Below, in pieces: positions 29,924 to 56,493 of a DNA stretch of 64,000 bases (within the stretch, counting starts at the first letter, position 1; each line of letters starts with the position of its first letter). The stretch lies in contig JAFWUX010000108.1 of assembly GCA_017523995.1 (NCBI GenBank), positions 49,322-113,321 of the forward strand. The letters run 5' to 3'. Source of the DNA: Oscillospiraceae bacterium. GTDB lineage: Bacteria > Bacillota_A > Clostridia > Oscillospirales > Ruminococcaceae. The notes below the pieces were generated by a model, which saw only the letters and a program-made list of their open reading frames with translations, had not been told where the DNA came from and searched no databases. The translations under genes and the position numbers were made by a program.

Positions 29924-30032
29924 GGTATCTCCGATGGATTTGTAATGGGGACTTACAGGATTGCTGCGCAAACTGTGCCCCAAACCTCTGCTTAAGGAAT
30001 ACTATCCCTTAAGAATCCCATTTTTGCGGAGA
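29924..30032 (+). repeat. Gene-end repeat, copy 1
   Basis: Starts directly after the polC TAA with GGTATCTCCGATGGATTTGT, then AATGGGG, a CTTACA GGATTGCTGCGCAAACTG segment, and the TTAAGG...CCTTAAG inverted repeat followed by ATCCCATTTTTG. Same family as copies at 36154, 36526, 39185, 50964, 53484, 54564, 61075 and 63764. Confidence 0.85.
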
Positions 30033-50963: not shown

Positions 50964-51046
50964 ATGTGTCTCCGACGGATTTGCAATGAGACTCCGTCCA
51001 AAGCCCTGCTTAAGGGACATTGCCCCTTAAGAATCCCGATTTTTGG
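50964..51046 (+). repeat. Gene-end repeat, diverged copy 5
   Basis: GTGTCTCCGACGGATTTGCA, ATGAGACTCCGTCC, then CTTAAGGG-ACATTG-CCCCTTAAG and ATCCCGATTTTTGG. It is a shortened and diverged copy, behind the terminator of the Spx/ArsC-like gene. Confidence 0.75.
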
Positions 51047-51608: not shown

Positions 51609-52685
51609 ATGTATTATCCGATCAGCGATGCAAACTGCATCACACTGAACACGCTCAAAGCTCTGCTCAGCCCCGAAAGCCGTCAGACCGACTATCTGAC
51701 CATGCTGTTCCCGCCGGAGCTCAATGACTTTGATACCGCGAATCTGCTTGATTTTATCTATGACACGGAGAATATCACGCTGCGCAACACGCGGACAACC
51801 TTTACAAACGGCAATATCATCCGGCAGAATGACAAGCAGACCTATTCCCGTGCGAATCAGACGAAGCTGACCGTTATTGCGCGCTGGCTGCGATGTCCCG
51901 GCACGGAGACGCTCTGGGCGCAGTTTCTCGCTGCGCAGTTCCCGCTGCTCGATCACAGACTGCTTGCGCGGACGGTCGAGGAGGATGCTGCGCGCTATCC
52001 GGCGGCGTTTGCCGAACTGCTCGGACAGACTGAACATGCCGGAGACAGCGCACATCTGCTGCTCCTGCTGATCCTCTGGGCGGTGTTCGGCGAGCGCATC
52101 ACAACTGCAGACGGCATCTTTTATGCGGAATCTGAGGCGGCGCAGCCCGATGCAAAGGCTGGCTCGAAACCGCCCGACAGAAAAGCATTCTGTGAGGCTT
52201 CGTTCCGCACCGTTCCCGATATTCAGCATGTGGATTTTTCGTTTCACAAGGGCGATTTCTGGCTGATCGACAGCAGCCGCATCGAGTTTCTGCTCTCGCT
52301 CATCAGCCGGAAGATTCATCTGCGCGTGCTGGTCGATCTCGTCGAGCCCTCGCGCCTGATCTCCTCGCATATGGAGCACAGCAAGCGGTTTGTCCTGCCG
52401 CACGAAATGGTGCTGCAGTACTGGCGCGAATTTCAGCAGCGCAATCCGGAGTATGTCCATGTGCGGTTCTCGCCGGTGCCCGTTCTGCGCAATTACTGCT
52501 GCTTTGCCTCTGCCGATCCGGAAAAATCCGCAATGCGGCTGACGTTCTATTCCTACGGGCACAAAAATTTCAACGAATACTTTGTGCTGTGTCCGGAAGC
52601 GGGCACGAAGCCCTTTACGATCTTCCGTGAGGAGTTTGAGTATCTCTGGGCGCAGGGCGTCGAAGCAGATACCGATACTGTATAA
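51609..52685 (+). CDS. Unknown cytoplasmic protein next to a RlaP-type nucleotidyltransferase
   Basis: Not recognised. The 358-residue product has no signal or membrane segment. It opens MYYPISDANCITLNTLKALL, has a helical middle with LLLLLILWAVFGERIT (about 150-166) and a C-terminal part with DSSRIEFLLSLISRKIHLRV and YYSYGHKNFNEYFV-like strands (about 310-340). GGGAGGTG precedes the ATG. It is 39 bases before the nucleotidyltransferase gene, likely co-transcribed. A regulatory or RNA-related role next to RlaP is only a guess. Confidence 0.75.
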   Translation: MYYPISDANCITLNTLKALLSPESRQTDYLTMLFPPELNDFDTANLLDFIYDTENITLRNTRTTFTNGNIIRQNDKQTYSRANQTKLTVIARWLRCPGTETLWAQFLAAQFPLLDHRLLARTVEEDAARYPAAFAELLGQTEHAGDSAHLLLLLILWAVFGERITTADGIFYAESEAAQPDAKAGSKPPDRKAFCEASFRTVPDIQHVDFSFHKGDFWLIDSSRIEFLLSLISRKIHLRVLVDLVEPSRLISSHMEHSKRFVLPHEMVLQYWREFQQRNPEYVHVRFSPVPVLRNYCCFASADPEKSAMRLTFYSYGHKNFNEYFVLCPEAGTKPFTIFREEFEYLWAQGVEADTDTV

Positions 52686-52724
52686 TATGCAGACCATGCG
52701 TACATTATGACAAGGAGTACAGCA

Positions 52725-53483
52725 ATGAGAAACATTCAGCAGGAAATACAGGAAAAACTTGACGAAATCGAGCGCATGGAGCATGTGAAGATTCTGCACT
52801 GCGTTGAATCCGGCAGCAGGTCGTGGGGATTCCCCTCGCCCGACAGCGATTATGATGTGCGGTTTATCTATCTGCGGGAGCGCGATGCCTATCTCAATCT
52901 GGCGCCGCCGCGCGATGTGATCGAATGGCAGCTCGATGATGTGCTGGATATCAGCGGCTGGGATGTGCAGAAAATGCTCCGGCTGCTTTACAAATCCAAC
53001 CCGACCGTTTTTGAATGGAACAGCTCCCCGATCATCTACCGCACCGCGCCGGAATGGCAGCGCATCAGCGAGGTGATTCCCGCGTATTTTCGTGTGAAAT
53101 CGGGACTGCATCACTATCTGAGCATGGCGGGCGGCAATGCAAAAGCCTATCTGCAGGGGGATGCGGTCAAGCTGAAAAAATATTTCTATGTGCTGCGTCC
53201 GATTCTTGCGTGCCGCTGGATTCTCGACCGGCAGACACCCCCGCCGATGCTCTTTTCGGAGCTGATGCAGTCCGAGCTTGATCCGGAGATGCGCCCCGTT
53301 GTGGATGATCTGCTCGCGCGCAAGCAGCAGACCTCGGAGCTCGGCACGGAGCCGCCGATCGCACCGCTGCATGCCTATATCGAGCGGCAGCTTGCGGAGC
53401 TCACGGAAATCGCAGAACAGACGCCCGATCATCCGCATCCGGACTGGGACGCGCTCAACAAGGTTTTCCTCTCGCTGTTTTAA
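52725..53483 (+). CDS. RlaP-type nucleotidyltransferase
   Basis: DNA polymerase beta-like nucleotidyltransferase of the YcgL/RlaP family (PF10127), linked in other bacteria to RNA repair. The 252-residue product has the family signature ESGSRSWGFPSPDSDYDVRF (about 28-47) with the metal-binding DxD in SDYDVRF, followed by IYLRERDAYL and a helical C-terminal half. AAGGAG is seven bases before ATG 52725. It follows the 358-residue unknown gene; no RNA ligase or RtcB is in the window. Its stop is followed at once by a gene-end repeat. Confidence 0.9.
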   Translation: MRNIQQEIQEKLDEIERMEHVKILHCVESGSRSWGFPSPDSDYDVRFIYLRERDAYLNLAPPRDVIEWQLDDVLDISGWDVQKMLRLLYKSNPTVFEWNSSPIIYRTAPEWQRISEVIPAYFRVKSGLHHYLSMAGGNAKAYLQGDAVKLKKYFYVLRPILACRWILDRQTPPPMLFSELMQSELDPEMRPVVDDLLARKQQTSELGTEPPIAPLHAYIERQLAELTEIAEQTPDHPHPDWDALNKVFLSLF

Positions 53484-53567
53484 GGTATCGCTCCGCGATG
53501 ATCTGTAATGGGGCGCTGCCCCAAGCCCCGCTTAAGGGATAGTATCCCTTAAGAATCCCATTTTTGA
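53484..53567 (+). repeat. Gene-end repeat, copy 6
   Basis: Starts with GGTATC right after the TAA of the nucleotidyltransferase gene, with an insertion (GCTCCGCGATGATCTGTAAT), GGGGCGCTGCCCC, then CTTAAGGGATA-GTA-TATCCCTTAAG and ATCCCATTTTTG. The palindrome plus T run may act as a terminator. Confidence 0.85.
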
Positions 53568-53613: not shown

Positions 53614-54291
53614 ATGAAACAAATTCTCTCCGGCATGCTCGCTGCGGGAATGCTGCTCAGTCTCGGCGGATGCGGAAAAAAGCCCGTCCAGCAGGCGGAG
53701 GAAAGCAGCGTCACCACTCCGGAATACAGCCTTGAGATCGTCGAGCCGGAGACCGGCAAGCCCGCGACCAATCCCGCGGACACCGTGCCGATGGCGCCCG
53801 AGACGGTCACGGAGGTTGTCACGGTCACGCAGATTGTCACGGTGACTTCGGTTGTCACAGTGACCGAATCCGCAGAACCCGGCGAGCCCTATGACGCCGG
53901 CACGCTCACAGAGGCGGCGGAACCGCTTGTTGTGGAGGGAACCATCGACAAGGACGGCACCTTCACCACCAAGGATGACGTCGCGCTGTATATCTATACA
54001 TACGGCGAGCTGCCGAAAAACTTTATCTCGAAAAAGGAGGCGCAGAAGCTCGGCTGGGAGGGCGGTTCGCTCGAGCCCTATGCCCCCGGCTGCTGCATCG
54101 GCGGCTCGTACTTCGGCAACTACGAGGGCAAGCTCCCTGAGAAAAAAGGCAGAGAATACACCGAATGCGACATCGACACACTCGGCAAAAAATCACGCGG
54201 CGCAAAACGAATTGTCTTTTCCAATGACGGACTGATCTACTACACAGGCGACCACTACGAAACATTTGAATTGCTGTACGGGGAGGAATAA
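53614..54291 (+). CDS. Lipoprotein with a barnase-family ribonuclease domain
   Basis: Predicted surface-anchored guanyl-specific RNase toxin. The 225-residue product has a lipoprotein signal with lipobox LGGC (Cys20), a Thr/Val/Pro linker with repeated VTVT units (about 62-88), and a C-terminal barnase domain (about 115-225): LYIYTYGELPKNFISKKEAQ, LGWEGG, GSYFGNYEGKLP, and DHYETF. The catalytic residues of barnase (Glu73, Arg83, Arg87, His102) align with Glu184, Arg195, Arg199 and His214. AAAGTGAGG lies before the ATG. A barstar gene follows after two bases. Family and active site are seen; the surface display and target are inferred. Confidence 0.9.
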   Translation: MKQILSGMLAAGMLLSLGGCGKKPVQQAEESSVTTPEYSLEIVEPETGKPATNPADTVPMAPETVTEVVTVTQIVTVTSVVTVTESAEPGEPYDAGTLTEAAEPLVVEGTIDKDGTFTTKDDVALYIYTYGELPKNFISKKEAQKLGWEGGSLEPYAPGCCIGGSYFGNYEGKLPEKKGREYTECDIDTLGKKSRGAKRIVFSNDGLIYYTGDHYETFELLYGEE

Positions 54292-54293
54292 CC

Positions 54294-54563
54294 ATGACTG
54301 TCACGATTGATTGCAAAGACATCCAGACGAAGGAGGATTTCCACAGCACTTTTTCCAAGTCGCTCTATCTGCCGGGGTTTTACGGCAACAATCTTGATGC
54401 GCTCCATGACTGCCTGACCGCACTGCCGCAGAAAACCGTGATCAATCTGCTGCATACAGAAAGCCTGATCCATAATCTCGGACCCTACGGCAGAGCCGCC
54501 ATCGCTGCCATTGCCCACGCCGAACGCGAAAATCCCGAACGGCTCACCGTGAATATGTTATAA
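54294..54563 (+). CDS. Barstar-family RNase inhibitor
   Basis: The 89-residue cytoplasmic protein matches barstar in size and key sites: LPGFYGNNLDALHDCLTAL around residues 26-44, with Tyr30, Asp35, Asp39 and Cys40 at the same numbers as in Bacillus barstar, whose Asp35 and Asp39 plug the barnase active site. Its ribosome site GGGGAGGAA lies in the end of the barnase gene. It presumably protects the producer from the neighbouring RNase before export. Its stop TAA is immediately followed by a gene-end repeat. Confidence 0.93.
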   Translation: MTVTIDCKDIQTKEDFHSTFSKSLYLPGFYGNNLDALHDCLTALPQKTVINLLHTESLIHNLGPYGRAAIAAIAHAERENPERLTVNML

Positions 54564-54980
54564 GGTATCTCCGATGGATTTGTAATGGTGGCTCTCCGCG
54601 CTGCGCTGTGTCGAGTTTGCTGCGCAAACATCGAGCCCCAAACCCCGCTTAAGGGATACTATCCCTTAAGAATCCCATTTTTATTATGGATGAATGGAAA
54701 ACGCTGCCGGAGCGTCAATAAAAAAGTTTTGGTCGAGCTTTTTCAAAAGCTCGCGGAATCCAGAGGCAGCGCCTCTGGTCGCTCGTCGCAACGAGCGAAA
54801 CTCCCCCGCCGAAGGAGCTCCGCAAGGGTGAATTTCAAAAAGCATCCGGGGGATGCTTTTTGAGAGAGGGACGCCCTGCGATAGAGGGCGTCCCTAAGTG
54901 AATTGCCAAGCAATTCACAGATCGTCACGAATGTGTCTCCGTCAGATGTGTCTCCGACGGATTTGTAATGGGGCTGCTCG
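54564..54980 (+). repeat. Gene-end repeat, composite copy 7
   Basis: Begins GGTATCTCCGATGGATTTGT directly after the barstar stop, then AATGG, CTTAAGGGATACTATCCCTTAAG (split palindrome), ATCCCATTTTT. A second block follows: AAAAGTTTTGGTCGAGCTTTT, CCAGAGGCAGCGCCTCTGG, CGTCGCAACGAGCGAAACTC, AAAAAGCATCC/GGATGCTTTTT and GGACGCCC/GGGCGTCC hairpins, and at 54935 a new start GTGTCTCCGACGG. A reading frame at 54585-54863 is made of repeat sequence. Confidence 0.8.
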
Positions 54981-55497: not shown

Positions 55498-56493
55498 ATG
55501 AAAACCATCAACAGAAAGATTGTTGCTGCAATCTGCTCCGCTGCCATGATGACAGGCGCTGCATTTGCGCCGTCGCTCGGCATCATCAAGGATACCGCAC
55601 TCACCGCTTCTGCTTACAGCGGCTATATCAACGGCTGCCACTGGGAGTATGAGATGGATATCACCGGCTATGCAATCACCAAGTGCCGCAACTATCAGCA
55701 CCTGCAAACCGTCAACATCCCGTCTACGATCAACGGCAAGCCGGTTATCGCAATCTATGACAACGCTTTCATCAATAACTCTGAAAGCTGCGCACAGTAC
55801 ATCAAGAACCTCACCATGCCGAACACCATCTATAAGATCGGCAGCAACTTCTTCAAAAACTGCGATAATCTCCAGAGCATCAATCTTTCCACCTCGCTGA
55901 TCACCATCGGCGACTACGCTTTCTATGACTGCGACGGTCTCCACAGCATCAACTTCCCGGACAGCGTCAAGCAGATCGGCTCCTATGTCTGCAACTGGGC
56001 ATGGAACATGTATGACGTCACCCTCGGCTCCGGCATTGAGGTGATCGGTGCAAACTCCTTCGCACGGATGCGCGACCTGAACAACTTTAATTCCAGCAGA
56101 AGCGAACTGCTCTGGTCTGTCGGCAGCGGCGTTCTCGCGAACAGCAAATGGGCAAATAACCGTTCCGAAGACGAAATGCTCTGCATCGGCAAGAACAACA
56201 GAGTGCTGCTCAGATACCAGCGCTGCAGCACCAACCCGACCGTTCAGCTCGGCTCCAATGTCAGAATCCTCGCAGACGGCGCTTTCAACACCGCAAGCTG
56301 GAGTCACGGTCACTGGGTAAGAGACATCTACTGCCCGAGAATTGAGCACATCGGCAACAGCGTCTTCGGCAAGGTTCCGAATGCAAGAGTTCATCTCAGC
56401 GGCTCTCTGATGTATGTCCACTACGGTACCAACTACAACACTTCCGTTCCGCCGCTGGTCGCTCCGGCAACTGCTTACTTCGATCTCCCGTAA
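55498..56493 (+). CDS. Secreted leucine-rich-repeat protein (BspA-like)
   Basis: The 331-residue product has a signal peptide (MKTINRKIVAAICSAAMMTG, likely cut after AFAPSLG or TASA) and BspA-type LRR_5 repeats between about 70 and 300, such as LTMPNTIYKIGSNFFKNC, INLSTSLITIGDYAFYDC and INFPDSVKQIGSYV. Such proteins mediate adhesion or protein contact at the surface of gut and oral bacteria. No anchor motif or dockerin is seen, so it is probably secreted. AAGGAG precedes the ATG, and a strong terminator follows. Confidence 0.85.
   Translation: MKTINRKIVAAICSAAMMTGAAFAPSLGIIKDTALTASAYSGYINGCHWEYEMDITGYAITKCRNYQHLQTVNIPSTINGKPVIAIYDNAFINNSESCAQYIKNLTMPNTIYKIGSNFFKNCDNLQSINLSTSLITIGDYAFYDCDGLHSINFPDSVKQIGSYVCNWAWNMYDVTLGSGIEVIGANSFARMRDLNNFNSSRSELLWSVGSGVLANSKWANNRSEDEMLCIGKNNRVLLRYQRCSTNPTVQLGSNVRILADGAFNTASWSHGHWVRDIYCPRIEHIGNSVFGKVPNARVHLSGSLMYVHYGTNYNTSVPPLVAPATAYFDLP

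Follow-up and report, generated by a model that had tools for sequence, protein, structure and literature searches.

The window, the whole 64,000-nucleotide stretch of DNA from a gut-type bacterium analyzed here, encodes a barnase-type ribonuclease (RNase) with a lipobox at its N terminus, followed directly by a barstar gene (Table 1). We found that such an anchored barnase is a common, conserved form in related bacteria and no oddity. We lean toward the view that it would serve as a conserved surface RNase for external RNA, with the barstar guarding the cytoplasm and the product passing to salvage. To our knowledge, the natural role of barnase, the textbook secreted enzyme, is still unclear, and the tethered form opens a direct test of the purpose of the barnase family.

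Table 1. Features in and around the RNase–barstar pair (positions are those of the window).
Feature	Position	Strand	Remarks
Barnase-type ribonuclease ORF	53614..54291	+	225 aa; signal and lipobox LGGC (Cys20), linker ~21-113 with VTVT stretch at residues 64-84, PF00545 domain 126-220
Signal peptide through predicted lipidation cysteine (Cys20 codon)	53614..53673	+	Basis: sequence, lipobox rule, shuffle control
RNase catalytic domain, residues 114-225	53953..54288	+	Aligned to barnase
GGGGAGGA stretch	54280..54296	+	Precedes barstar ATG, within RNase gene 3' end
Barstar ORF	54294..54563	+	89 aa, no visible signal sequence; predicted cytoplasmic inhibitor
358-aa protein gene	51609-52685
RlaP-type nucleotidyltransferase gene	52707-53483
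BspA-type leucine-rich repeat protein gene	55498-56493
Palindromic repeat, four copies	29991-30018; 51009-51036; 53531-53558; 54648-54675

By sequence and by predicted fold, the RNase is a member of the barnase family. PF00545 was the only Pfam domain matched in the window RNase (E 1.5e-20, 74 bits against a curated cut-off of 24), and the closest solved relative by alignment was barnase (E 7.7e-26). Barnase chains were also the top PDB matches of the predicted RNase domain, with TMt mostly 0.88-0.92 and identity mostly 46-50%. In the alignment, K140, E184, R195, R199, and H214 of the RNase pair with barnase K27, E73, R83, R87, and H102, which we take to be the catalytic positions in barnase numbering. 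Cys20, Glu184, Arg195, Arg199, and His214, as named in the original prediction, its coordinates, and the two bases that it placed between the RNase stop and the barstar ATG were all exact on re-reading of the sequence; K140, which matches barnase K27, is a fifth catalytic residue that it had not listed. With these residues intact, the RNase domain is predicted to be catalytically competent. The AlphaFold model of the RNase had a mean pLDDT of 63.3 and was confident mainly in the domain, while values fell below 50 over residues 28-46 and 48-85, which is consistent with a flexible tether.

The adjoining protein matched PF01337 (E 4.5e-18, 65.5 bits against 23.4); Pfam and the predicted folds agree with the barnase and barstar families originally assigned to the two proteins. 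Its AlphaFold model, with a mean pLDDT of 94.4, matched the solved structure 1a19_A at TM 0.86 and 27% identity (Foldseek), and its closest solved relative was barstar (E 6.5e-08), with 1b3s_D as the top PDB match. The stretch GGGGAGGA is a candidate ribosome-binding site and suggests that translation of the RNase and the barstar may be coupled. Tyr30, Asp35, Asp39, and Cys40, the barstar residues singled out earlier, are all found in the sequence, and D39 and D35 are presumably those that block the active site. However, Tyr29, which we take to be an important contact, is Phe29 in this barstar; 1b3s_D shows Phe at position 29 of the alignment as well. The hot spots of the Bacillus amyloliquefaciens pair are presumably barstar Tyr29, Trp38, and Glu76 and barnase Arg59, and the window pair differs at each of them (Phe29, His38, and Ala76 in the barstar; Tyr170 for barnase Arg59). 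We treated these four contacts as marks of that pair, not as criteria of the family. The barstar of the window is predicted to inhibit the adjoining RNase.

To place the pair among its relatives, we relied on several searches. All of the scored candidates in the protein database search passed (8,000/8,000), so the RNase family numbers at least 8,000 in that database. GTDB genomes contained 268 stretches encoding relatives, of which the best 80 were used, and the other genome searches contributed at most 30 loci each, for example 30 of 61 places in the class search. The resulting 178 loci and the window held 180 RNase frames, or 157 distinct RNases once copies identical over the last 150 residues were dropped, a set biased to close relatives. 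In the genus to which the nearest genome (G001) belongs, 26 of 30 genomes carried the RNase, 25 of them with a single copy. Outside the genus it was patchy, occurring in 30 of the 148 genomes of the G001 family and in 57 of the 391 genomes of the class. The wide distribution of the tethered form, which most genomes of that genus carry, suggests a cell-surface role in which the product stays with the producer.

The window signal, MKQILSGMLAAGMLLSLGGC, has a basic residue, a hydrophobic core, and a lipobox cysteine, and it falls into the lipobox class of our own pattern (not SignalP). With this pattern, under which some assignments used GTG/TTG starts or a cysteine upstream of a likelier one, the 157 distinct RNases (window counted) fell into four classes: a lipobox in 106, a different hydrophobic segment at the N terminus in 32, neither in 14, and truncation at a contig end in 5. 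Of the 14, three (L037, L055, and L070) carry a lipobox in a frame without a called start and were counted as lipobox proteins in the tree and in the barstar-adjacency tallies, which leaves 11 RNases without a signal. The original prediction had treated the lipid anchor as an oddity and had proposed a search for other lipobox–barnase proteins; among the relatives examined, the lipobox turned out to be the commonest N terminus. The 27 loci of the genus divide into 22 with a lipobox, 4 with a hydrophobic segment, and 1 without a signal.

The N terminus could instead be an ordinary Sec signal, cleaved or uncleaved, in which the cysteine is coincidental. Such a reading draws on the 32 RNases with a hydrophobic segment but no lipobox, on the cysteine that L131 has within LIAGGC and that is missing in L005, L006, and L007 of the same genus, and on LGGC itself, a loose lipobox shared by 7 of the 106 proteins in the lipobox class (window counted). 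However, the lipobox was present in 106 of the 138 lipobox-or-hydrophobic proteins (window counted), compared with 288 of 27,600 sequences (1.0%) when residues 2-45 were shuffled and 1,769 of 27,600 (6.4%) when only residues 11-34 were. Moreover, G19 and C20 were at least 90% conserved in a 40-sequence alignment. A coincidental cysteine is therefore highly improbable in our judgment, and the RNase is probably lipidated at Cys20 and displayed on the outer face of the membrane. As predictions, the lipid anchoring and the cytoplasmic location of the inhibitor are both well supported. The hydrophobic-segment class (n=32) may contain cleaved, released proteins. The two kinds of N terminus were mixed across the RNase tree, which was built from 108 columns and has many unresolved forks; the best tree required 19 switches between the two. 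On supported branches alone, a minimum of 4 changes is needed for the lipobox group and of 5 for the hydrophobic group, each taken against all other rows. Thus, an anchor at the N terminus appears to be retained through changes in its chemistry.

The pairing with barstar extends well beyond the window. Every RNase locus of the genus (27/27, in 26 genomes) had a barstar domain match 18-50 bases away; a barstar was present in 27 of the 30 genus genomes, one of which has it without the RNase. Across the class, we found a barstar in 56 of the 57 genomes with the RNase versus 17 of the 334 others (Fisher p 2.9e-51, kinship ignored), and the corresponding figures for a second family (that of G568) were 36/41 versus 6/79. 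Among 138 anchored RNases followed by 330 bases of sequence or more, 115 had an adjacent barstar (93/107 with a lipobox and 22/31 others). The adjacent barstar was missing in the remaining 23, whose genomes had a barstar match elsewhere in 21 cases and no barstar match in 2.

Comparison of the paired proteins showed that all 127 paired barstars (window counted) keep D39 and that 124 of them keep D35. Barnase position 59 is Tyr in 120 of the 157 RNases, and none of the 127 barstars examined has Glu at position 76. We take R59 of barnase and E76 of barstar to form a contact in the textbook pair; because this contact is missing, binding must differ from that of the textbook pair. No residue swap between position 59 and barstar 76 was seen, as barstar 76 is A, M, L, I, F, or V in the 18 rows with Arg59. 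Raw counts gave an apparent association of position 59 with barstar 38, Trp38 occurring in 7 of the 18 Arg59 rows versus 3 of the 101 Tyr59 rows, but this co-variation was not upheld by a tree-aware test (on supported branches, only 4 independent pairs; median p 1).

Of the 23 genomes that lack a barstar beside the anchored RNase, 10 encode a low-molecular-weight tyrosine phosphatase with a C-terminal barstar, a protein of about 235 aa. It is encoded at 11 loci (L179-L189), all away from the RNase, and Pfam confirmed both domains in 5/5 of the loci tested; L247 holds a further fusion of this kind. A database search with the fused barstar part returned 161 proteins. The phosphatase signature lies within the first 30 residues of 104 of the 120 proteins listed, and 117 of the 120 keep both barstar aspartates. 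Barstar frames of 225-250 aa were absent from the matches in the genus of G001 and from those of the 391-genome class sample (where frames of 176, 195, 207, and 736 aa were left out). Among the fusions read thus far, the RNase is always unlinked, and the fusion looks lineage-specific. A 240-aa barstar frame in G684, a genome of the G568 family, adjoins the RNase of that genome. At L050:5830-6726, a single lipoprotein contains two tandem barnase domains, with Arg replacing the catalytic His in the first; the genome of this locus, G568, also has a phosphatase–barstar fusion. We found no paper on a barstar–tyrosine phosphatase fusion in the open-access literature. If it bound the RNase, the fusion would be a new way of tying an RNase inhibitor to signaling, and it may interest specialists more than the anchored RNase. 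It is conceivable, although doubtful, that the barnase of gut Clostridia is chiefly a membrane-tethered surface enzyme with interchangeable lipid and transmembrane anchors, and that its inhibitor is regulated in some lineages by phosphatase fusion, an arrangement that would link RNase safety with phosphotyrosine signaling.

Purifying selection on the catalytic domain is strong, and the tether is loose. Between the window and 12 relatives, dN/dS was 0.00-0.10 for the RNase catalytic domain and 0.06-0.34 for the barstar, as compared to 0.10-0.58 for the RNase N terminus and linker (11 values, one saturated); several dS values exceeded 1 and are imprecise. The RNase domains of L001 and the window were identical at 112/112 aligned residues with a dS of 0.36. 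Such a difference between domain and linker is what a conserved enzyme held by a loose tether would show. All five catalytic positions were kept in 148 of the 157 RNases (104/106 with a lipobox and 32/32 with a hydrophobic segment) and changed in 9.

These results bear on an antibacterial weapon, contact-dependent or shed, for which the barstar would be the immunity protein; the contact-dependent form was among the roles originally proposed. The gene order, toxin then immunity, would suit a weapon, simple barnase–barstar pairs being a possible incipient form according to the available text of one study (PMC3482391), and the sampled genomes include fusions of this RNase family to phage-head (MuF-type) domains. 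However, a weapon is difficult to reconcile with genus-wide, mostly single-copy presence and with purifying selection on the RNase domain, which has no diversified toxin tip. The RNase also has no delivery or trafficking domain, PF00545 being its sole Pfam match. Furthermore, none of 141 anchored loci had more than one barstar-like frame, in contrast to 3 of 11 signal-less loci, which had 2 or 5 (flank sizes differ between the two sets). The weapon is thus weakened, and we judge it distinctly unlikely. Among the signal-less RNases, 5 of the 6 given to Pfam matched the phage-head family PF04233, 2 of them above the cut-off, and 3 of the 3 given to PHROGs matched phage head families. The MuF-type barnase fusions of L105, L107, and L103 are followed by 5, 5, and 2 barstar-like frames, respectively.

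The neighbors of the RNase in 22 loci (L001-L008 and L165-L178) were compared with the window genes, and a separate search for eight of the window proteins covered every frame of a set of loci. The neighbors differed among these relatives, and neither comparison with the window revealed a conserved operon wider than the pair. The 358-aa protein has no Pfam match, and its gene recurs upstream of the RNase in L001, L002, L113, L126/L171, and L131/L178. The palindromic repeat CTTAAGGGA...TCCCTTAAGAATCC has two of its four window copies flanking the RNase–barstar pair, with 0 matches expected in shuffles; exact copies were found in only 2 of the 178 loci (L001 and L085), which represent one and the same place. 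A mobile cassette has too little support, given the copies at 29991 and 51009 and the restriction of exact copies to L001/L085.

Directly upstream of the RNase lies the RlaP-type nucleotidyltransferase gene (PF10127, E 1.5e-88, "RNA repair pathway"). Its position, and the likeness of an RNase with its inhibitor to toxin–antitoxin logic, would fit the originally suggested phage-defense trap, which would degrade phage RNA or kill infected cells. However, PADLOC gave no match for the RNase, the barstar, or RlaP, and among the loci searched, many of them short-flanked, RlaP lies beside the RNase only in L001 (= L085), L002 (= L130), and L122 (= L177). Moreover, an exported RNase would miss intracellular phage RNA. 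This makes a trap extremely improbable. The downstream BspA-type leucine-rich repeat protein (PF13306, E 1.7e-26) has an N terminus that is signal-like by eye and is possibly a surface protein. It would accord with a surface RNase that remodels biofilm or extracellular RNA rather than serving nutrition, a role that the same anatomy would suit; yet few other loci showed the leucine-rich repeat gene in the vicinity of the RNase, and we consider such remodeling unlikely.

In the nutritional role that we favor, the RNase would be exported via Sec and lipidated at Cys20, and its flexible linker of about 93 residues would keep the barnase domain outside the membrane, where the tethered domain would cut external RNA. 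The barstar made from the next gene and held in the cytoplasm would block any enzyme that folds before export. The benefit would probably be a local breakdown of RNA whose products supply nucleotide or phosphate salvage. Among the roles considered in the original prediction, an RNA-degrading, nutrient one appears to be the best fit, with the nutrient step the least certain. This step leans on phosphate-starvation-induced Bacillus enzymes and on mycoplasma membrane nucleases; the eight window proteins that were run against Pfam included no product of a phosphate or nucleotide uptake gene.

Simple barnase–barstar pairs are already published. The examined text of Zhang et al. 2012 describes them as widely distributed and in toxin-then-immunity order, the same gene pair as in the window, and anchoring is absent from that text (PMC3482391). 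For the lipid-anchored form, we found no paper in the open-access literature: it is not described in the titles and abstract openings examined, a scope that most subscription journals fall outside. Balifase of Bacillus licheniformis, a related enzyme, resembles the window RNase in sharing one operon with its own inhibitor. Balifase is induced by phosphate starvation; it differs in that it has a signal and a propeptide, and the term "lipoprotein" is missing from the available text of the balifase paper (PMC5021464). The MuF-type polymorphic toxins with barnase share the RNase domain and often have a barstar downstream, but they carry an N-terminal phage-head domain, which the window RNase does not have, and sometimes several barstars. 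MnuA of mycoplasmas is a nuclease unrelated to barnase and is not known to have a barstar. Mycoplasma membrane nuclease lipoproteins of this kind resemble the window RNase in their anchor, being membrane-associated and linked to nucleotide salvage in the available text (PMC11729948). Last, the B. amyloliquefaciens pair, apart from the four contacts described above, shares with the window pair its family, fold, catalytic residues, barstar D35/D39, and signal-less inhibitor. In the available text on barnase, barstar is a cytoplasmic safety catch and the enzyme is secreted to the extracellular space after removal of its signal peptide (PMC8625414), whereas the window RNase has a lipobox and a long linker.
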